Below are positions 39,297 through 53,800 of a stretch of DNA of 64,000 bases, one piece after another. The first letter of the stretch is position 1, and each line of letters opens with the position of its first letter. Position numbers and translations under genes: made by a program. Below the pieces are notes generated by a model. The model was not told where the DNA came from. It was given only the letters and a program-made list of their open reading frames with translations, and ran no database searches. This DNA comes from Gammaproteobacteria bacterium TMED78 (lineage in GTDB: Bacteria > Pseudomonadota > Gammaproteobacteria > Steroidobacterales > Rariloculaceae), in assembly GCA_002171615.1 (NCBI GenBank), contig NHEF01000014.1:80974-144973 (forward strand). Reading direction: 5' to 3'.

Positions 39297-40364
39297 ATGC
39301 AAAAACTTATTTTAATATTTTTTTTAATTAACTTACCTTTTTCTGTTTTTTCTCAGAATGAAAATTCTGGTATCTATTGGATAGATTCTGATGGCTCTGC
39401 TGCAACTTTGATTGTTACTCCAGGTGGCACATCTATTTTAGCTGATGCCTCTTGGGATAGAGAGCCTTATCTTGAGCGTATTCTTGAGGTCATCGAGCTT
39501 GCAGGCGTTACTCAAATAGATTATATGATAGCAACACATTTTCATGGCGATCATAGTGGTGGCATTTTACCATTATCAAAGGTTGTACCTATTTGTGAAT
39601 TTATTGATTATGGGGATAGTGCTTATAAAGATCTTGATCGTGGCAGAGATAACTGGAATAACTATCTTGCTGCTATTGACCATAGTATTTCGACTGCCGG
39701 TTTTTGCGGCCAAGCTGGTGGAAAAAGAACTTCGGTTAGACCAGGGGATATGCTGCCATTAAGTGATGGGTCTAGCCTAACTATTGTGGCTAGCGATAAA
39801 TTAGTTTTACCAAATCCATTGATATCTACTGAGTATAATCAATTATGTGACAATGCTATACCTGGCTTAGATCCTTGGATAGGTAGAGATCCCGCTCACG
39901 GCGAAGATCCAAGAAGTATAGGGTATGTCTTCTCAGTTGGTGATTTTCAGTTTCTTGATACAACAGACATAAGTTGGAATGGCTTACACAATCTTGCTTG
40001 TCCATTAAATTTAGTTGGTAAAATAGATTTATTACAGTTGCCTCACCATGGTAACGATGTAGCTCCTCAGTTGATCCATGCGATAGAGCCCGTTGCATCT
40101 GTTTCAAATGGAGGGCCTACTAAAGGAGGTAGTGCTGAGGGATATGAAGTAATTTCTTCTAGTCCGGGAATCCAAGGCGTTTGGCAATTACACAGATCGA
40201 TCAATAATGATGATCAGCACAATACTGAAAATGAGAAAATTGCTAATGATTCAGAATTAGAACAGCATGGAAACTGGATCAAGGCTATCGTTAGTAGTGA
40301 TGGAAAGTCATTTCAGATAACTAACTCTAGAAATGGGCATACAGAGAGTTATAATTCTAGATAG
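39297..40364 (+). CDS. Exported metallo-beta-lactamase-fold hydrolase (ComEC C-domain-like)
   Basis: This 355-residue secreted protein has a Sec signal peptide (hydrophobic residues 3-18, cleavage after FSQ). An MBL-fold domain follows, and its di-metal motif is H81-x-H83-x-D85-H86 in THFHGDHSGG. A later FLDTTDISWN probably supplies the bridging aspartate, and LQLPHHGND a further histidine. The PHHG element is characteristic of the ComEC/Rec2-like branch, which acts on nucleic acid or phosphodiester substrates. No ComEC membrane channel is present. It starts just downstream of tRNA-Arg and converges on a TctC-type gene 15 nt away. The substrate is unknown. Confidence 0.82.
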   Translation: MQKLILIFFLINLPFSVFSQNENSGIYWIDSDGSAATLIVTPGGTSILADASWDREPYLERILEVIELAGVTQIDYMIATHFHGDHSGGILPLSKVVPICEFIDYGDSAYKDLDRGRDNWNNYLAAIDHSISTAGFCGQAGGKRTSVRPGDMLPLSDGSSLTIVASDKLVLPNPLISTEYNQLCDNAIPGLDPWIGRDPAHGEDPRSIGYVFSVGDFQFLDTTDISWNGLHNLACPLNLVGKIDLLQLPHHGNDVAPQLIHAIEPVASVSNGGPTKGGSAEGYEVISSSPGIQGVWQLHRSINNDDQHNTENEKIANDSELEQHGNWIKAIVSSDGKSFQITNSRNGHTESYNSR

Positions 40365-40379: not shown

Positions 40380-41342
40380 TTAGTCAGTGATTGATAAGTT
40401 ATACTTTTCTGAAGCTAGCTTAAGTCTATTGCCTTCTTCTTGAATGTATTCAAAGAATTCATTTGGACTATTACTTGGCGATATGCTCATTCCTAATTTT
40501 TCTATTTCTTCTTTTACTTGTGAATCTTGCAATGTTCGATTAATGGCTATATAAATTTCTTCAATCCTTTTTTCTGATATATCGGCTGGTGCAAATATTC
40601 CTGCCCATGAGCCATGCGGAAAGCTAGATAAATTGTATTCCAGCATGGTAGGCACATTAGGGAATATTTCAATCCTTAATGGGTGAGCTACAAGCAAGGG
40701 TATGGCATCACCATCATTAACTAAAGGTGCTACGTAGGGAGAGGTGGTCATTGCTAGATCTATATTTTTTTCTCTAATAGCTTTCATTACATTAGCAGAG
40801 CCTCTTAAGGATTCATCTAGAAGAAGATTCAGACCGAGTTCATTTATTAGACCGGCGAACTCAAGCCTATGAATACTAGTTGGAGCGATATAAGAATATT
40901 TTAGTGCTTCATCATTATTTCTAGAATAATCAATTAGTTGGTCAATAGTATTTATCCCAAGGCCAGATCTAATAATCAAAACATCTGGTGTAGAAGTAGT
41001 TCTAGATATAGGTCTAGTATCAATTGATGGATCAAATTTAAAATTAGGTGAAATGTTTGGAAGAAGTGAAACAACTCCAATTGTTGAAATATAGATAAAA
41101 TTTTCATTACCTCTTTCATTGATTATCTCAAGAGCAGAAGAGGATCCACTTCCAAACTTTATATTGATATTTTGGTCTAATTCTTCAGCAAGCTTGTCTT
41201 TCATTATCTTAATCGTTTTACTTGAAGAGCCCGTTTCTGCAAAGGTGGTGAGAATTGTTAATGTCTCATCAGCCTGTATAAAGCTACTAGTTAAAAAAAT
41301 AAAAGAAAGAAATAATAAGAAAGTTTTTATTTTAATCATCAT
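40380..41342 (-). CDS. Tripartite tricarboxylate transporter-type solute-binding protein (TctC/Bug family)
   Basis: This is a periplasmic binding protein of 320 residues with a signal peptide ending QADE. The Bug/TctC fold is indicated by an internal HPLRIEIFPNVPTMLEYNL, where the FPNVPTM element is the family signature. A GSWAGIFAPADI stretch and a LIDYSRNN-type helix also fit. Normally TctC works with membrane subunits TctA/TctB to import carboxylates; neither is in the window. It is the last gene of the minus-strand cytochrome/propeller operon (21 nt gap), so it may deliver or sense a ligand for that system rather than transport it (inference). Confidence 0.82.
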   Translation of the reverse strand: MMIKIKTFLLFLSFIFLTSSFIQADETLTILTTFAETGSSSKTIKIMKDKLAEELDQNINIKFGSGSSSALEIINERGNENFIYISTIGVVSLLPNISPNFKFDPSIDTRPISRTTSTPDVLIIRSGLGINTIDQLIDYSRNNDEALKYSYIAPTSIHRLEFAGLINELGLNLLLDESLRGSANVMKAIREKNIDLAMTTSPYVAPLVNDGDAIPLLVAHPLRIEIFPNVPTMLEYNLSSFPHGSWAGIFAPADISEKRIEEIYIAINRTLQDSQVKEEIEKLGMSISPSNSPNEFFEYIQEEGNRLKLASEKYNLSITD

Positions 41343-41363: not shown

Positions 41364-42476
41364 TTAGTGACAAACATTGTTAGATAATCCAATATTAAAA
41401 GCACCTATTCCCTTATTTGTTGCTTTTATATATTTTACTTGTTTATTTTCTAAATTTATCGCTCCAATATATGGGCTATCTTTAAAAGGAATGTAAGCTG
41501 TCTTTCCATCGTGCGAGCCTAGTGATGTTAGTGGGGTATATTTAAATTCACCTTGAGCAACAATAGACTTTTTTACATTATCATAGATATAGTAATTTTT
41601 GTTTTCTGAGCTAGCTAAAAGATTCATTCTATCAAATCTACCAACTGTAATAAGATTAATTTTCTGACCTATGATTGTATCCTCATATTTTTCAAAATAC
41701 TGTTGATCTACAGAAATAAATCTCCCTGTTTCTTGATCTATCATATATAAAAAGATACCTTCTGGTGTTGTGTAAGGCCTTATAGGATTTTTTCCTACTT
41801 CGAAAGTCTGAAAAACTATTTTTGAAAAAGTATTTAGAGCAAACACTTCTCCTGACATAAGATTTGAAAAGTAAATATTCCTTCCATCAAGGCTACGAGA
41901 TGGAGAAGAAAGATCAATAATATTTTGATCTTTAATAATAGGTATTTCAAATATTTTTCTAGTATTAACATTAAGAATACCGATTGATCCATTTTCATTA
42001 TTTGTATAGAAAATTTCGTTTTCATTTGGATCAAACAAAACATCTTTTGTAGGAGGAAAGTCTTCAATATAAAAAATTATATCAGCTGCGTAAGGAGAGA
42101 ATAAGACAAATCCACCTTTATGGTTATCTGAGAAAGCAATCTTTGTACCAGTTGTATCAAGTACCATGTTTCTAGGTGATATAGGCAAAGCAATTTCTTT
42201 TACTAGTTTTTTAGATTTAAGGTCATAAACAGATACGAGATTTTTTTCTATATTAGTATATATCAGTATTGGCGCATAAGGAGTAGATAGTAAGCTATCT
42301 ATATGATTGTTAGTTTCAATTTCATATACTACTATCTCTTCATTTAAATTAATTACATCAATAATGTTTTCTTCATTGTCAGCTGCAAACATAAGTGCTC
42401 TAGGATTTGATATATCAACCTGACTAAAAGCAGATAAAGAGTAAAAAAGAATAAATAAAAAGAAATAAATACGCAT
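41364..42476 (-). CDS. Periplasmic YncE-like beta-propeller protein
   Basis: This 370-residue exported protein has a signal peptide (hydrophobic 4-17, cleavage after AFSQ). Repeated 40-45-residue beta-propeller blades follow, such as SVYDLKSKKLVKEIALPISP, GILNVNTRKIFEIPI and AINLENKQVKYIKATNKGI. No heme c motif is present. It starts one base after the CcdA-like gene's stop, so it is clearly part of the same operon. It could be a partner or structural homologue of the heme-containing propeller encoded first in the operon. No catalytic residues can be assigned. Confidence 0.75.
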   Translation of the reverse strand: MRIYFFLFILFYSLSAFSQVDISNPRALMFAADNEENIIDVINLNEEIVVYEIETNNHIDSLLSTPYAPILIYTNIEKNLVSVYDLKSKKLVKEIALPISPRNMVLDTTGTKIAFSDNHKGGFVLFSPYAADIIFYIEDFPPTKDVLFDPNENEIFYTNNENGSIGILNVNTRKIFEIPIIKDQNIIDLSSPSRSLDGRNIYFSNLMSGEVFALNTFSKIVFQTFEVGKNPIRPYTTPEGIFLYMIDQETGRFISVDQQYFEKYEDTIIGQKINLITVGRFDRMNLLASSENKNYYIYDNVKKSIVAQGEFKYTPLTSLGSHDGKTAYIPFKDSPYIGAINLENKQVKYIKATNKGIGAFNIGLSNNVCH

Positions 42477-42477
42477 T

Positions 42478-43836
42478 TTATGTTAGACCTAGATAGGGAT
42501 AAATTAAATCACTAACAGTATGGAAATTATCTGTGATTAGTATTAATCCAAAAGTTATAATGATAATCATGCTCAAAATGCTCAGATATCTAGAGTTTTG
42601 GCTTAGAAATGAGATAATAGTTTTAGACTTAGAAATATAAAGAGCTGATAATAAAAAAGGCACAGCTACTCCGACAGCAAAAGCCAGCATAATTCCAGCA
42701 CCAATTAGAGCGCTTCCTATTGCACCAACATATACAATTAGTGTTGCAACAATAGCGCCACCAAAACAAGCTGTACACCCGAGAGCATATCCCATTGAAG
42801 CAATAATAGCTGCTAAGGAATCTTTATTCGAAAGCTCCTTTATTTTTTCAGAGCCTTTTATAGAACAAGTTAAATTCTGTCTACCTCTAATTCCTACCCA
42901 TAGACCAAGAAAAATTACTATCATGCCTGATATTATTGAAACTAATCTACTATATTCAGCAAATAAAAGTTGAGCCTGATTTCCAATTGCTCCAATCACT
43001 GCTCCAGCAATTGCGTAGAGAAGAACAAAGCCTATAACAAAAAATATAGCTATATTTAAGACTTTCTTTCTAATTATTGGAGATGTAAAGCTAGAGTTAT
43101 TTTGACTACTAGGTATAGTTGAGAATCCAGCTATAACCCCACTAAAAACAATTACTAATTGTAATAAGCAAGGCGTTAGTACTGAAGACAGCAAGCCAGC
43201 TCCAAGTGCAAGCATAGCAATAGGAGTGATATAAGAATTAGTTTTTATTTCTGGGGGGATAGAGTAAGGAAGATCCCAGCTTGCTACAAATGTCATATCT
43301 TTTTCACTTCCAAGGTAAGGATTTGAAATATAGAGTCTAATTCTATCAGATGAAGATAGGTCAATTATTTCTCCATCATCTGTAATTTTAGGAAAACTAA
43401 AGATACTCATTCTATGATGCTCAACATTTCTGGGGCCTTCTTCAAAGTTTGGTAGATATGTTTTTTCTCCTATATGCAAAACTGCTTTCGGTAGTTGGGT
43501 CGGTAACTCTCCTCTATGTATAGTTTCGTTTAAGAAAAATATAATATTTTTATCAGGCCTAAGCTCAGAAATAATATTAGCTCTATCAACAAATTGAAAA
43601 TATTCGCTACTAGCTAAAGTAGCGGTAATTTCTATATCTGAAGTATTTATCAACTGTCTTGTAAGATATAATGAAATATTCCCGGCCCTTATATTTCTAG
43701 ATTCATTGCCAACATTTTGCATTAATTGAGGGCCTTGGAAGAAATATGGCATAGCAAGCCATGAGCAGGCAATAAGAAGGCTAGTTAAGACAAGCAAGCC
43801 TAATTTAAATGGATTATTTTTATTTATAGTACTCAT
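42478..43836 (-). CDS. CcdA/DsbD-like membrane thiol/electron-relay protein with an N-terminal periplasmic domain
   Basis: The 452-residue protein has a first transmembrane helix around 12-31 and a periplasmic domain to about residue 200. A C-terminal membrane part with about seven helices follows. That part carries LTPCLLQLV with C223 and CTACFGG with C354 and C357, the arrangement expected of CcdA/DsbD-type carriers that pass reducing equivalents across the membrane. The N-terminal domain, unlike that of DsbD, has no obvious redox cysteine pair. It lies 4 nt after the Sco gene and 1 nt before the YncE-like gene. I infer that it keeps the Sco thiols or the heme-binding cysteines reduced during assembly. 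Confidence 0.75.
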   Translation of the reverse strand: MSTINKNNPFKLGLLVLTSLLIACSWLAMPYFFQGPQLMQNVGNESRNIRAGNISLYLTRQLINTSDIEITATLASSEYFQFVDRANIISELRPDKNIIFFLNETIHRGELPTQLPKAVLHIGEKTYLPNFEEGPRNVEHHRMSIFSFPKITDDGEIIDLSSSDRIRLYISNPYLGSEKDMTFVASWDLPYSIPPEIKTNSYITPIAMLALGAGLLSSVLTPCLLQLVIVFSGVIAGFSTIPSSQNNSSFTSPIIRKKVLNIAIFFVIGFVLLYAIAGAVIGAIGNQAQLLFAEYSRLVSIISGMIVIFLGLWVGIRGRQNLTCSIKGSEKIKELSNKDSLAAIIASMGYALGCTACFGGAIVATLIVYVGAIGSALIGAGIMLAFAVGVAVPFLLSALYISKSKTIISFLSQNSRYLSILSMIIIITFGLILITDNFHTVSDLIYPYLGLT

Positions 43837-43840
43837 GAAA

Positions 43841-44422
43841 TTACAGTTTATTTATTCTATCAATTAGCTCACTTGAGCTAGTATTGAAGGGTACAATATC
43901 TAATAGTTCTCCAGATGGAGTGATAATATAAATATTTGAGGTATGTTGAACAGTATAGTTATTTTGAGTCTTTGTTATCGCATAACTAATATTAAAATTA
44001 TTTGCTACTTTATTTATTTCTTCAAAACTACCACTAAGCCCAATCATGTTTTCACCAAAATTAGAAGCATATTTATGAGTTATCTGAGGAGTGTCTCTTT
44101 CGCTATCTACACTTATAAAAATTCCTGTTGCATCTATTTCCAGAGAATTAATTGTATTTCCGATATTAAAAGCCATCATTGGGCAAACATTAGGGCAGTT
44201 TGTAAACCCAAAGCCAATAAAAATAAATTGACCAAAGAAATCTCTTACACTAATTTTGTTACCATTATGATCAGATAATTCAAAATCAATTTTAATTTCT
44301 TCAAAAATATTTCCTAATGAAGTATTTTCGATAGGATTGTGATTATGTACTTCATTATGTTGAGCTAATGAAATAGGATTTACGAGAACAAGAAAAGCGA
44401 TAAGAAAGTTTTTTGTATTCAT
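43841..44422 (-). CDS. SCO1/SenC-family copper chaperone / thiol reductant
   Basis: Sco proteins deliver copper to, or reduce the thiols of, copper sites such as CuA in periplasmic oxidases. The 193-residue product has a signal peptide ending ISLA followed by a histidine-rich QHNEVHNHNP. A thioredoxin-like domain follows with copper-ligand cysteines C76 and C80 in TNCPNVCPM and the third ligand H160 in VQHTSN. It lies 4 nt after the cytochrome-propeller gene and 4 nt before the CcdA-like gene. No cytochrome oxidase gene is nearby. Either the chaperone serves the propeller protein or it has been co-opted as its reductant (inference). Confidence 0.9.
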   Translation of the reverse strand: MNTKNFLIAFLVLVNPISLAQHNEVHNHNPIENTSLGNIFEEIKIDFELSDHNGNKISVRDFFGQFIFIGFGFTNCPNVCPMMAFNIGNTINSLEIDATGIFISVDSERDTPQITHKYASNFGENMIGLSGSFEEINKVANNFNISYAITKTQNNYTVQHTSNIYIITPSGELLDIVPFNTSSSELIDRINKL

Positions 44423-44426
44423 TGCT

Positions 44427-46214
44427 TTAGTAGTTTAGAGAAATTCCCTTTTGAGGATTTATCCCCCCGTGAAAATTACCTTGATCTCTTACAACTAAAG
44501 ATTCTCCAGATTCATTATAATAAACCCATATCATTCCATGGGCATCACCATTCTGTGGCATATCTATAATTTCAATAGTTTCTTTAGTGTCTACATCATA
44601 AACTGTCAATTTCCCTTCTCCATTACTCGTAGACCACATTTCTTTACCATTTGGTGAAAGCAAGACATGATCTACCTTGTAAGTTCCATAAAGAGTTTCA
44701 GTTGCATGGCCAGATTCAGTATCCATAACTGTAATAGTTCGGCCTAGGTGATGAGCTCCCTCACCCTTATCAGCTACCCAAAGTTCTGTTTCATCAGCAT
44801 TTAAACTTGCTCCATATGGGCCTATACCGGTTCCATTGCACCAGGCAACTTCACCTGTATTTGCATCATGCTTACATGCTTGTGAGTTCCCTGAGACAAC
44901 ATAAACAAATTCATTTTTTGAATCAATTACTGCCCAATTAGGTCGATATCCCGGAACGGGAAACTCAAGAACAACTTCCCAGGTATCTGCATCAATTTTA
45001 GCAACCCAGAAATTTCTCATTGCTACTAACTCACCTTGATAAAGGGATACGAGTCCAACCATTCCACTTGAGCGTCCTGGAGCATATCCTGTTGGTTCCA
45101 TTAGTGCATATATATATTTATGATCATTATCTGGCCAAACTGTATAGACCATTCCACCCATATCTATATCTTTTATGGCCCCAACTACCTCATCAGTCTC
45201 ATGATCATAAATAATTACTGCTGGACCCCCGGGGTCACGATGAAACATATCGAATAACATCTTACCTCTAAAAACTTGTCCATGATGAAGTCTCGCTCCA
45301 ATAGTAATTTGAGAAATTGGCTGAAGTGTTAAAGCATCAACTTTTACCATTGTTTGAGCACCACTTGGATCAGGAGTGCCATCGATACCTGGTTCCCTTG
45401 GTCCAGTAAAGTAGGCATATTTGCCGTCAGGAGACATCGCTGATGTGTGAACTGTAGCTCTCAGCGCTTCTGGAAATTCATAGCTAGCAATAACTTCAAG
45501 AGACTCTGCGTCTCCTACAACTAATTGGTTACTTTTTGGGCTTACGTATCCATCATATAAAATAGAGGGCGAGCTATTTGTTCCAACATTCTCGTAAAAG
45601 TATGTACGATCATTTTCTGGGAAAAACTTTTGTTCTCCTGGTTCAAAAGTTGCAACTACTCTCGAATCATATTGAGTTAATACGCTTCCTACTTTTGATC
45701 TCCTCTCCCAGTTATTAGCAAATGATTCAAAAGTTTCAATTGCTTCAATCTGATCATCTCTAGCAGATCTAGGGAAAACTTGTTCATTAGCTTCAGATCC
45801 TTTAACAGCCGCTAAGTCTTGTCTCCACCCATTTGCTATGTCTATTGCATCATCAAGCGGGAGATTGGCCAGTGTCCTGATATACATTGACATTGCCACA
45901 AGATCCTCATCAGAAGGATCCATTTCTGTTCTAATTACATCCATCAACGCATTGCTTTGTAATTGGAAATATATTTCAGATGGAGAAGGTCCAAATAACA
46001 AAGTTGGGCCTACTAAGCCTTCGCCGCTTTGAGCATGACATACCCAGCAGCCTATGTCAGAATCAAATAGCATTTTACCTCTCTGTACCAACTGATCTAT
46101 AGATGATTCATTAGAACTTATTAAACCACTTTCTTGTTGGTGTTGTGACAAGACAGGATTACCAAGGAAAGAGGCAGACAAGAGAATGAAGGACACTAAA
46201 GGTAAATTTTTCAT
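44427..46214 (-). CDS. Exported monoheme c-type cytochrome fused to a histidine-rich beta-propeller
   Basis: This 595-residue periplasmic protein has a signal peptide ending VLSQ. A short cytochrome c domain (about 35-120) has the heme motif C56-W-V-C59-H60 and possible axial methionines M91 or M98. A beta-propeller occupies about 215-590. Blade-associated histidines include H256, H310-H311, H325, H488-H489, H516, H559 and H582, many in conserved-looking contexts (VDHVLLSPNG, GDAHGMIWV). The architecture recalls heme d1 (NirS/NirF-type) and multi-His copper propellers such as NosZ, but clear signatures of either are missing. It heads the operon with a Sco chaperone and a CcdA-like protein. 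Function unknown; probably an electron-transfer enzyme. Confidence 0.72.
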   Translation of the reverse strand: MKNLPLVSFILLSASFLGNPVLSQHQQESGLISSNESSIDQLVQRGKMLFDSDIGCWVCHAQSGEGLVGPTLLFGPSPSEIYFQLQSNALMDVIRTEMDPSDEDLVAMSMYIRTLANLPLDDAIDIANGWRQDLAAVKGSEANEQVFPRSARDDQIEAIETFESFANNWERRSKVGSVLTQYDSRVVATFEPGEQKFFPENDRTYFYENVGTNSSPSILYDGYVSPKSNQLVVGDAESLEVIASYEFPEALRATVHTSAMSPDGKYAYFTGPREPGIDGTPDPSGAQTMVKVDALTLQPISQITIGARLHHGQVFRGKMLFDMFHRDPGGPAVIIYDHETDEVVGAIKDIDMGGMVYTVWPDNDHKYIYALMEPTGYAPGRSSGMVGLVSLYQGELVAMRNFWVAKIDADTWEVVLEFPVPGYRPNWAVIDSKNEFVYVVSGNSQACKHDANTGEVAWCNGTGIGPYGASLNADETELWVADKGEGAHHLGRTITVMDTESGHATETLYGTYKVDHVLLSPNGKEMWSTSNGEGKLTVYDVDTKETIEIIDMPQNGDAHGMIWVYYNESGESLVVRDQGNFHGGINPQKGISLNY

Positions 46215-50831: not shown

Positions 50832-51683
50832 CTATTTTATTAGATTAAGTAAATCTTTAGCTCTTTTAACTACTGGAATATCTATTACTTGATCCTTTAA
50901 GGAAGTAGATCCTCTTCCTTTTTTTTCTGCTTTTTCATATGTAGCAACTATCTCTCTTGCTTCTAATATTTCTTTTTTAGATGGGAGAAATGCTTTATTA
51001 ATGGTTTTGATTTGATTAGGGTGAATAGCAAATTTACCTCTAAATCCAATTTCTTTAGATTTCTGACAATCTATTTTTAGTTTTTTGTTATCTTTGAATT
51101 TAAAAAAAGGAGTATCAAGAGCAATTATTTTTGCCGCTTTTGCCGAAATAGAAATAATATTTTTTGCATATTGAATTTCAGAATTATCTTCAAGTCTATT
51201 AATTCCCATATCGTGTGTAAAATCTTCAGCACCAAAAGCCACACCAGATATTCTCTTACTGCAACTACAAATATCATAGCTATTTACGATAGCTTCAGCA
51301 TTTTCTAACCAAGGAATAATTTTAATATTACCAATAGCAAGTTTATTTTTTATCTCAAGCTTAGATAATATTTGTTCTAGTTTCTCTATATCTTGAGGTT
51401 TTCTTATTTTTCCTATTGATATAGCTGTTATATGAGGGCCAATAATTGCTTCTATATCATATTTAACAAATTCCGTATTAAGTGAATTAACTCTAGGAAT
51501 AATCGGTATTTTCTTTTGAGCAAGCTTTGGTATGAAATCACTTATTAGATCTCTTGCATTAGATTTTTCCTTATCAGGAACAGAATCTTCCATATCCGGG
51601 ACAAATGCGTCGGGAGAGAATGAGGCTGCTTTAAGAAGCATATTTTCCTTATTACCAGGAATAAATAAAAGACTTCTATACAT
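50832..51683 (-). CDS. HpcH/HpaI aldolase / CitE-like acyl-CoA lyase
   Basis: CitE-like TIM-barrel enzymes cleave or hydrolyse beta-hydroxyacyl-CoAs, such as malyl-CoA or citramalyl-CoA, with Mg2+. The 283-residue protein begins MYRSLLFIPGNKENM, has VPDMEDSVPD and IPRVNSLNTEF, then the metal/catalytic FGAEDFTHDMG and a GFRGKFAIHPNQI near the C-terminus. There are no CitD/CitF genes, so it is a stand-alone lyase or thioesterase rather than a citrate lyase subunit. Its ATG shares a base with the PQQ-dehydrogenase stop (TAATG), suggesting co-translation and possibly a shared pathway. Confidence 0.86.
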   Translation of the reverse strand: MYRSLLFIPGNKENMLLKAASFSPDAFVPDMEDSVPDKEKSNARDLISDFIPKLAQKKIPIIPRVNSLNTEFVKYDIEAIIGPHITAISIGKIRKPQDIEKLEQILSKLEIKNKLAIGNIKIIPWLENAEAIVNSYDICSCSKRISGVAFGAEDFTHDMGINRLEDNSEIQYAKNIISISAKAAKIIALDTPFFKFKDNKKLKIDCQKSKEIGFRGKFAIHPNQIKTINKAFLPSKKEILEAREIVATYEKAEKKGRGSTSLKDQVIDIPVVKRAKDLLNLIK

Positions 51684-53800
51684 TACTCAGGCGAAAGATC
51701 TTCTAATACATAAGTACTTATATTATTAATATCTTCGGTACTTAAGGACAGTCCAAATCCAGGCATTGCATTTAATCCATTTGTTACCTGGTTAATAATG
51801 ACTCTTAGATCTACTGCATTGGCTAGTGTTGTTCCTCCACCATGTCCACCAGAGCCATCAGTGCCGTGACAAAAAGCACAAACACCATCGTAAAGTATTT
51901 TGCCTTTATTTTTATCAGTAATAATTTCAATTTGCGATGATGTATTTGGCGTAACTAAATTTTGTTGATTAGTAGCCATAGATTCTTCTTGTTGGTTTAC
52001 TTGTTCTAGGGCTCCATCAAGAGAAAAGAGCCAAACACTATCACCTCTTTTTGATCCCATAAAAAGATTTCCAGCAGAGTAGGCAACTAAGTATTGTTTT
52101 CCATTATGCTCGAACGTACTTGTAGGAGCATTCATGCCTGCTCCAGTTTGAAATTCCCAAAGCAATGAACCATCTGAAGAATCTAGAGCAGTCAATCTTC
52201 CATCATTTCTTCCAAGAAAAACTATATCTCCAGCTGTAGAAAGAAAGCCACTATAGCATGGATCCCTAAGTCTTTGGCGCCATACAATTTTATTAGTTCG
52301 CATATCCATAGCAGCAATAATTCCTGATCTTTGAAATGGAACTCCACCGAACCTTCCTCCTAAAAACCTCTCTCCGCTGACAAAAGGTAAATCTTCCCCT
52401 TCATATCCACCTCTAAAAAAAGACATATGATCAGTTGCGCAAACATACATTAATCCAGTCCTTGGATCATATGCACTTGGTGGCCAGTTAGCACCTCCAT
52501 CATCTCCAGGGGCCATAACCTTTCCTTCTTCCATGAAGGGTGTAAATATTTTCCCTTGGTTGACAAGTGGCGGGTATCCTTCAGGTGCAATTTCGACTTT
52601 TTGAGGAACAAAGGCGTCACCTATCGGAAAGGGTTGAGTTAATGAGGTTGCTTGTCTTGGTTCTTGCATTACATGTTTTTCTTCAATGCCTATCAAGGGC
52701 GTACCGTCTTCTCGGTTTAGAATATAAAACCAACCTGTTTTACTTGCTTCTGCAAGCGCCTTATGAGTTTCTCCATCGATTTCTATATCAAATAAAACTA
52801 CAGGATTAGGTGAGTCATAGTCCCATATATCATGATGAACCTGCTGAAAATGCCATTTATATTTTCCCGTACTTGCTTCTATAGCAACTATAGAGACAGA
52901 AAAAAGATTATCACCTGGTCTTACAATTCCATTGAAATCAGGAGCGGCATTACCAGTAGAAAAGTAAATTAAATCTAACTCGGGATCAACTGCAGGCGTT
53001 TGCCAGACTGGCGCTCCTCCATAAAGATAGACATCACTATCTTGTGGCCATGTATCATGACCAAACTCTCCAGGTCCAGGTATTGTATAAAATGTCCATT
53101 CTAAGGAACCATCATTAGCATTATATGCTTTAACTCTTCCTCTAGTTCCAAATTCCCCACCAGCAAATCCAGTAATAACTAACCCATCATAATATAAAGG
53201 AGCGCTAGTGATAGTAAATCCTTCTTGCCAATCCTCTGCTTGGATATCCCAGACAATACTACCGTTTTTTTGATCTAAGGCTATTAATTTTCCATCTAAC
53301 TGCCCTACATATATTTTTCCATCTCCAAGCCCTACTCCTCTACTGGTCCATCCACAACAAATAGTCGTAGGTACTTCTGGATCAATAGAATTTTCAAGAT
53401 GAGCCTCATATACCCAAATGATTTCTCCTGTTTCTACGCTAATAGCAAAAACATCATCATTCCCCGTTATGATATATATTACTCCATCATAGATTAGTGG
53501 TTGAGCCTCACCTGAATATTTAGCTCCAAGGCCAGAGCCGTTTAATCTAGTTCTCCAAACACCCTTAAGTTCAGAAACATTAGATTTATTTATTTGATTT
53601 AAGGGGGAAAACCTTTGGTTATAGACGTTACCTCCATTTGTGATCCAATTATCTCTTGGCAATTCAACAAGCTCTTCATTAGTAAATGGAGGAGAAGGAG
53701 TAATCTCTTGAGCAAATGCTGAGCTAAAGCAGATTAGGGTTATAACTATTAAGGAAAGCTGAATTCGTAATATCGAATTTATTAAAATATTAATATTCAT
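51683..53800 (-). CDS. PQQ-dependent quinohemoprotein dehydrogenase (alcohol/methanol-type)
   Basis: This is a periplasmic quinoprotein with a fused cytochrome c, as in type II alcohol dehydrogenases. The 705-residue protein has a signal peptide ending SAFA. An eight-bladed propeller follows with blade motifs such as GSIVWDIQ and GSLLWEFQTGAG. The vicinal disulfide typical of the PQQ site is C148-C149 in TTICCGWTS. A C-terminal monoheme domain has CAFCH at about 641-645 and a probable Met ligand in AMPGFG. A calcium-type metal site is expected from the NAAPDFNG region. PQQ biosynthesis genes are not in the window. The substrate is not deducible. Confidence 0.93.
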   Translation of the reverse strand: MNINILINSILRIQLSLIVITLICFSSAFAQEITPSPPFTNEELVELPRDNWITNGGNVYNQRFSPLNQINKSNVSELKGVWRTRLNGSGLGAKYSGEAQPLIYDGVIYIITGNDDVFAISVETGEIIWVYEAHLENSIDPEVPTTICCGWTSRGVGLGDGKIYVGQLDGKLIALDQKNGSIVWDIQAEDWQEGFTITSAPLYYDGLVITGFAGGEFGTRGRVKAYNANDGSLEWTFYTIPGPGEFGHDTWPQDSDVYLYGGAPVWQTPAVDPELDLIYFSTGNAAPDFNGIVRPGDNLFSVSIVAIEASTGKYKWHFQQVHHDIWDYDSPNPVVLFDIEIDGETHKALAEASKTGWFYILNREDGTPLIGIEEKHVMQEPRQATSLTQPFPIGDAFVPQKVEIAPEGYPPLVNQGKIFTPFMEEGKVMAPGDDGGANWPPSAYDPRTGLMYVCATDHMSFFRGGYEGEDLPFVSGERFLGGRFGGVPFQRSGIIAAMDMRTNKIVWRQRLRDPCYSGFLSTAGDIVFLGRNDGRLTALDSSDGSLLWEFQTGAGMNAPTSTFEHNGKQYLVAYSAGNLFMGSKRGDSVWLFSLDGALEQVNQQEESMATNQQNLVTPNTSSQIEIITDKNKGKILYDGVCAFCHGTDGSGGHGGGTTLANAVDLRVIINQVTNGLNAMPGFGLSLSTEDINNISTYVLEDLSPE

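Follow-up and report, generated by a model that had tools for sequence, protein, structure and literature searches.

Within a 64,000-nucleotide (nt) stretch of the genome of Gammaproteobacteria bacterium TMED78 (contig NHEF01000014.1, positions 80,974 to 144,973; hereafter the window), we analysed four consecutive minus-strand open reading frames (ORFs) encoding proteins of 595, 193, 452 and 370 amino acids. The genome measures 1.57 Mb, with a completeness of 98.77%. A first-pass annotation of the window had taken the four genes for an operon with intergenic gaps of 4, 4 and 1 nt, and the ORF coordinates bear this out. The operon encodes, in order, a secreted protein in which a cytochrome c domain precedes a beta-propeller, a Sco copper chaperone, a CcdA/DsbD-like membrane protein and a second propeller of the YVTN type (Table 1). 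The 595-residue protein had been described as monoheme and indeed contains a single CxxCH motif, and the cysteines and histidine proposed for Sco (C76, C80, H160), as well as the cysteines proposed for the CcdA-like protein (C223, C354, C357), are all present.

Conserved histidines in the 595-residue propeller

When the 595-residue protein was searched against Pfam and NCBIfam, as the first-pass annotation had suggested, no family reached its cut-off. Relatives were found by matches at E 0.001 or better in 19 of the 58 genomes searched (the host's own genome counted), and strong matches were limited to the taxonomic family of the host, where 15 of the 21 other members, or 16 of 22 with the own genome, carry them. 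The protein family is multi-copy, with up to 13 matches per genome if fragments are counted, and the host itself holds two such genes. Across 369 genomes of the host's class, only two matches were found beyond the own genome, both weak and partial. A search of 398 genomes of the phylum yielded one other genome, the alphaproteobacterium G477, with a full-length homologue (E 3e-209), along with two weak partial matches. Among 394 genomes of G477's family there was one further homologue, in G811, which has no heme c, and of the 332 genomes of G477's class, G477 was the only one with a 595-type match at E ≤1e-20. The three relatives that bear names are metagenome-assembled Gammaproteobacteria or Proteobacteria. 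No relative was found in the viral contigs searched, nor in a plasmid search with the heme c propeller and the CcdA-like protein of G477. Our literature searches turned up no title describing this propeller family, which does not in itself prove that it is unpublished.

We aligned 61 distinct genes, comprising 59 places in the host family that cover at least about 360 residues (two of them in the own genome) together with the homologues of G477 and G811; 13 shorter fragments and eight weak matches were left out. The first-pass annotation had listed nine blade histidines in the 595-residue protein. All nine exist and six of them are conserved (Table 1), but the remaining three are not: H325 occurs in one of the 61 genes, H488 in 15 and H489 in 20. 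The six conserved histidines are all kept in G477 and G811, whose propellers share 48% and 36% identity, respectively, with that of the window protein. Further invariant residues of the family include R424, W427, D431, D577 and Q578. The heme c motif is missing from 17 of the 61 genes, at least one of which (L017) is cut by a contig end, others being full genes that have no cytochrome domain. Because these heme-less paralogues keep the histidines, we regard it as well supported by the alignment that the propeller would contain a histidine cluster distinct from the heme c site.

To place the histidines, we used two AlphaFold runs with five close sequences, one of the whole protein and one of the propeller only, which gave mean predicted local distance difference test (pLDDT) values of 50.0 and 54.8. 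The better-modelled half spans residues ~184-375 when only the propeller was modelled and ~402-551 when the whole protein was, and we joined the strand lists of these two weak models by hand to assign blades. The result suggests that the propeller is probably eight-bladed, with its last blade closed by an N-terminal strand at ~185-190. H256, H310-H311, H516 and H559 would then fall at equivalent starts of the innermost strand A in blades 2, 3, 7 and 8, and H582 would lie in a loop between strands B and C. In propellers, such positions lie on a common face of the fold around the central channel. Foldseek and VIA-align searches with the models returned many propellers at near-equal scores, with NirN at the head of both lists. 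The top structural matches include NirN, BamB and Tako8, a designed eight-bladed propeller, with ties within 1 Z; their high rank lends mild support to a count of eight blades. NosZ and thiocyanate dehydrogenase (TcDH) were not among the matches listed for the models, a result that excludes neither.

Table 1. Positions of the operon genes and of the residues discussed, numbered within the window
Feature	Position	Strand	Basis or conservation
595-residue secreted monoheme cytochrome c and beta-propeller protein with six conserved histidines	44427..46214	(-)	ORF; 61 homologues aligned
Sco (SCO1/SenC) copper chaperone, 193 residues; C76, C80, H160	43841..44422	(-)	PF02630
CcdA/DsbD-like membrane protein, 452 residues; N-terminal domain without family	42478..43836	(-)	PF02683
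Second propeller, 370 residues, YVTN type; P231-x-R233-x-Y235	41364..42476	(-)	Generic propeller models and alignment
C-terminal tail codons, C369-H370	41367..41372	(-)	17/17 sequences, five lineages; absent from the first-pass annotation
Heme c motif, C56-x-x-C59-H60	46035..46049	(-)	CxxCH kept in 44/61 genes
H256 codon, strand A start, putative blade 2	45447..45449	(-)	61/61
H310-H311 codons, strand A, putative blade 3	45282..45287	(-)	61/61 each
H516 codon, strand A, putative blade 7	44667..44669	(-)	61/61
H559 codon, strand A, putative blade 8	44538..44540	(-)	61/61
H582 codon, loop after strand B, putative blade 8	44469..44471	(-)	58/61, Arg in 3

Co-inheritance of the operon genes

If operons cut by contig ends are counted, 11 of the 16 genomes with propellers, out of 22 in the host family, keep the order propeller, Sco, CcdA-like gene, second propeller (G000, G004, G005, G008, G009, G012, G013, G016, G018, G020 and G021). 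G007 and G011 carry the pair of CcdA-like gene and second propeller with no Sco adjacent. The CcdA-like gene (E <1e-40) and the second propeller (E <1e-100) were found in an identical set of 13 of the 22 genomes, all of which bear the 595-residue family (Fisher p 0.0011, uncorrected for kinship), and the six host-family genomes that have no 595-type propeller also have neither partner. The nine propellers that belong to operons fell inside a single 23-row clade (support 100/100) of a 50-propeller tree, on which the operon label required three changes.

Outside the host family, the genes for the CcdA-like protein (473 residues), the second propeller (385 residues) and a 589-residue heme c propeller lie head to tail on one strand in G477, between an upstream gene that looks porin-like by eye (no Pfam match) and a downstream phosphonate-type binding protein. 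Among the 332 alphaproteobacterial genomes, G477 alone gave a full-length match to the CcdA-like protein, beside the propeller. Three others matched its membrane domain only; as judged by eye, two of these matches have Sox-like genes around them and the third has unrelated ones. G811 encodes its heme-less propeller divergently from a second propeller, and the stretch read there contains no CcdA-like gene.

The Sco of the operon scored 122.9 bits against PF02630 (cut-off 22.8) and is the only Sco in its genome; its three-residue motif is kept in all seven operon Scos. The CcdA-like protein matched PF02683 (DsbD_TM) at 48.9 bits, above the cut-off of 27.1, and ends after the membrane domain, with neither the C-terminal thioredoxin-like domain nor the classical N-terminal domain of DsbD (NCBIfam DsbD, 33.6 bits vs. 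330). An alignment of ten of these proteins showed H107, H140, H141, C223, C324, C354, C357 and H439 to be invariant; C324 was missing from the first-pass annotation. Residues ~30-200 form an N-terminal domain for which no believable Pfam family was found in any of the ten members and which, given H107, H140 and H141, may bind metal.

The second propeller matched only generic propeller models in Pfam and NCBIfam and terminates in a Cys-His dipeptide. Second propellers of the 13 host-family genomes, G477 and G811 all have this ending, and a search of plasmids for relatives of the G811 protein led to further proteins so tailed, from Candidatus Manganitrophus and Photobacterium sp. DA100; with the second propeller of the window as query, the plasmids yielded a single match, weak and partial. 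Ten residues are invariant across the 17 tailed propellers, including P231, R233, Y235, C369 and H370. Three untailed relatives on plasmids terminate in SPN, so the Cys-His tail is not general for YVTN-type proteins. On the Photobacterium sp. DA100 plasmid (L103:4789-11085, a locus unannotated there), the tailed propeller lies in a cluster with a porin, PCuAC, a NapC/NirT cytochrome, an Lcl_C/cytochrome c protein, Sco, a DsbE-like thioredoxin and a small cytochrome c. At title and abstract level, the literature searched named no Cys-His-ended propeller as a copper-delivery partner.

A metallo-beta-lactamase-fold protein (39297-40364) and a TctC-type binding protein (40380-41342) adjoin the operon in the window and lie outside the kept gene order.

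A putative copper site and its alternatives

We favour the reading that the 595-residue protein is a periplasmic copper oxidoreductase with a built-in heme c and a copper-loading module, to which we assign a probability of roughly 0.5; the system itself is real, conserved and unclassified, with about even odds that the propeller metal is copper. The first-pass annotation had proposed that the propeller binds copper or a second cofactor. A histidine cluster apart from heme c is the part of this proposal that has held up well. The case for copper is circumstantial, coming from the operon Sco, the co-inherited CcdA-like protein and second propeller, and the PCuAC and Sco genes around the tailed propeller of Photobacterium, and the link to Sco and CcdA-like genes at the locus level has proved weak. 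Compared with that annotation, the copper reading has gained from the conservation of the histidines and from co-inherited partners with a Cys-His tail, and has lost the locus link for most copies.

We infer copper from the gene context, and with it the catalytic site, the roles of the CcdA-like protein and the second propeller, and the path of the electrons. Some or all of H256, H310, H311, H516, H559 and H582 would bind a copper centre in the propeller, and the N-terminal heme c would relay electrons to or from it, comparable to the way TcDH delivers its electrons to a cytochrome c that is a separate protein (PMC9456337). Sco would supply the copper, while the CcdA-like protein would move reductant across the membrane to the Sco thiols and to the tail cysteine of the second propeller, which in turn would pass on Cu(I) or grip the target during loading. 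Heme-less paralogues would need a separate cytochrome. An azurin-like protein, recognised by eye, is encoded in the same genome beside oxidase genes, just upstream of COX2 (L090:5446-5895), and is a possible candidate for an electron acceptor.

Neighbours of the propeller paralogues include pyrroloquinoline quinone (PQQ; quinoprotein) dehydrogenases, flavin adenine dinucleotide (FAD) oxidases, an amidase, an amidohydrolase and an RPE65-family oxygenase. The many copies and their catabolic neighbours lead us to guess that the family oxidises various small substrates rather than carrying out a single respiratory reduction. Elsewhere in the window (51683-53800) there is a PQQ alcohol-dehydrogenase-type protein with a cytochrome c domain at its C-terminus. 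DUF6152 proteins (PF19649) were seen near many propeller paralogues (e.g., L025:8597-10674), many of them with a His-His pair soon after the signal peptide. One sequence cluster accounts for 27 ORFs in 15 of the 41 loci examined; on these raw counts, we note the DUF6152 proteins only as possible partners.

Several observations weigh against a copper enzyme with a loading module of its own. The placement of the histidine site depends on models of low pLDDT. The histidines are also not singled out by their conservation, since conservation reaches 97% or more in 81 of the 411 propeller columns. Sco is present in all 22 host-family genomes, with or without propellers, and the own genome has one COX2, so the operon Sco may serve the oxidase. 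The first-pass annotation had raised the question of whether the propeller always co-occurs with Sco and CcdA-like genes, and at the locus level it does not: most propeller copies have neither as a neighbour, and the G477 cluster has no Sco. Three genomes (G002, G015 and G019) hold propellers yet neither the CcdA-like gene nor the second propeller, an absence that may be real or may stem from assemblies that are 88 to 94% complete. The tailed propeller of Manganitrophus adjoins an OprB porin inside cobalamin biosynthesis genes rather than copper genes (L101:6520-9005, L102:5431-7702), which may link it to cobalt or another metal. Of the contexts seen, the two that include Sco carry the copper reading of the tail, and this one points elsewhere.

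Several propeller enzymes hold metals other than copper through histidines, and the site might likewise hold non-heme iron, zinc, manganese or cobalt, with Sco and the CcdA-like protein serving heme c maturation or a terminal oxidase. The ubiquity of Sco in the host family irrespective of propellers, the cobalamin genes around the Manganitrophus protein and the majority of propeller copies lying far from Sco would all suit such a metal. We nevertheless consider it unlikely, as the CcdA-like gene and the second propeller track the propeller family and not Sco or heme c generally, and as the tailed propeller of Photobacterium is accompanied by two copper chaperones. The classical roles of Sco and CcdA as factors for oxidase and cytochrome c, and the presence of a single Sco and a single COX2 in this genome, would fit an operon that is simply a copper and thiol maturation module for cytochrome oxidase, with the 595-residue gene a mere neighbour. 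This seems highly improbable in view of the gene order kept in 11 genomes, the absence of the CcdA-like gene and the second propeller from the six propeller-less genomes, and the location, next to a propeller, of the sole full-length CcdA-like match among the 332 Alphaproteobacteria.

The protein could instead be related to cytochrome cd1, NirN or NirF and hold heme d1, or a tetrapyrrole like it, in its propeller, with H256 as an axial ligand. The 595-residue protein reached 22.3 bits against Cytochrom_D1 (PF02239; cut-off 25.5), and 33 of 40 members gave weak matches to this model at E 0.01. NirN leads both structure lists (in VIA-align, many other propellers tie with it), the order of heme c followed by propeller is shared, and the segment around H256 presumably resembles the axial-ligand segment of NirS. 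However, NirJ (TIGR04051), which is needed for heme d1 biosynthesis, was above its cut-off in none of the 22 host-family genomes (nor in any of 14 controls), six conserved histidines exceed what a tetrapyrrole pocket needs and Sco would be left without a role, all of which makes a heme d1 protein very unlikely. A non-catalytic role, as a scaffold or docking protein that delivers a cytochrome c to partner dehydrogenases, with histidines of purely structural importance, would agree with the strong conservation beyond the histidines and with the quinoprotein and flavin dehydrogenases next to paralogues. We find this distinctly unlikely, since conserved histidines at equivalent strand positions, one pair of them adjacent, would be unusual for a scaffold, and since the site is also kept in the heme-less copies, which would be unable to relay electrons.

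If the copper reading is correct, a much-duplicated family in uncultured bacteria would join the few known copper propellers (NosZ, TcDH and SBP56), and proteins outside the Pfam and NCBIfam classes would gain a function. The second propeller would be a factor for copper loading that is new and simply recognised, by P-x-R-x-Y and by Cys-His at the C-terminus, and reduction of the built-in heme c would give a direct readout for the question of the substrate. We suggest, more tentatively, that copper enzymes may here have a new class, in which a heme c propeller with a six-histidine copper site has multiplied into many substrate-specific copies within an uncultured gammaproteobacterial family and has a dedicated loader made up of Sco, the CcdA-like protein and a propeller whose Cys-His tail carries Cu(I); the tailed propeller might then act elsewhere on other targets, as in Photobacterium, as a general and so far unrecognised copper-insertion factor.

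Comparison with known propellers and copper delivery

NosZ is a copper propeller with an adjacent histidine pair and a seven-histidine CuZ site. In the 595-residue family, the six histidines are conserved together in 58 of the 61 genes, in a spatial arrangement predicted from weak models. A short, weak match to a NosZ NCBIfam model was found in 17 of 40 family members. The 595-residue protein scored 23.4 bits against the clade III lactonase-type L-NosZ (NF052460; cut-off 700) and differs from it in showing no evident second copper domain behind the propeller and in having its heme c at the N-terminus. With cytochrome cd1 and NirN, it shares a heme c domain followed by a propeller of probably eight blades, but its family has a different histidine set.

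The nearest parallel in gene context is MtoX, of the SBP56/MtoX/SELENBP1 group of copper-dependent propellers with a His-His pair. The copper propeller gene mtoX is described as adjoining SCO1/senC (PMC5739008), and the propeller His-His pair of SELENBP1 as required for copper-dependent activity (PMC10362175). In contrast to SBP56 and MtoX, the 595-residue protein has its own heme c and sits in an operon with a CcdA-like gene and a Cys-His-tailed propeller and no MauG gene. The SBP56 Pfam family gave no match to the 595-residue protein at E ≤1, nor to any of 40 members at E 0.01.

TcDH is described as a secreted propeller with three coppers in a tunnel that passes electrons to cytochrome c (PMC9456337), and resembles the 595-residue protein in being a secreted propeller, in our case putatively of copper, with a cytochrome c as its putative electron partner. 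The heme c of TcDH is a separate protein, however, and the helper genes reported for its loci are Cop or Cus genes (PMC6504805) and not Sco, a CcdA-like protein or a tailed propeller. The profile match between the two proteins was weak (E 1.1) and confined to positions 247-333. Periplasmic copper delivery through Sco, PCuAC and thiol reductants is echoed by the Sco and the CcdA-type protein of the operon, and by the Photobacterium cluster.

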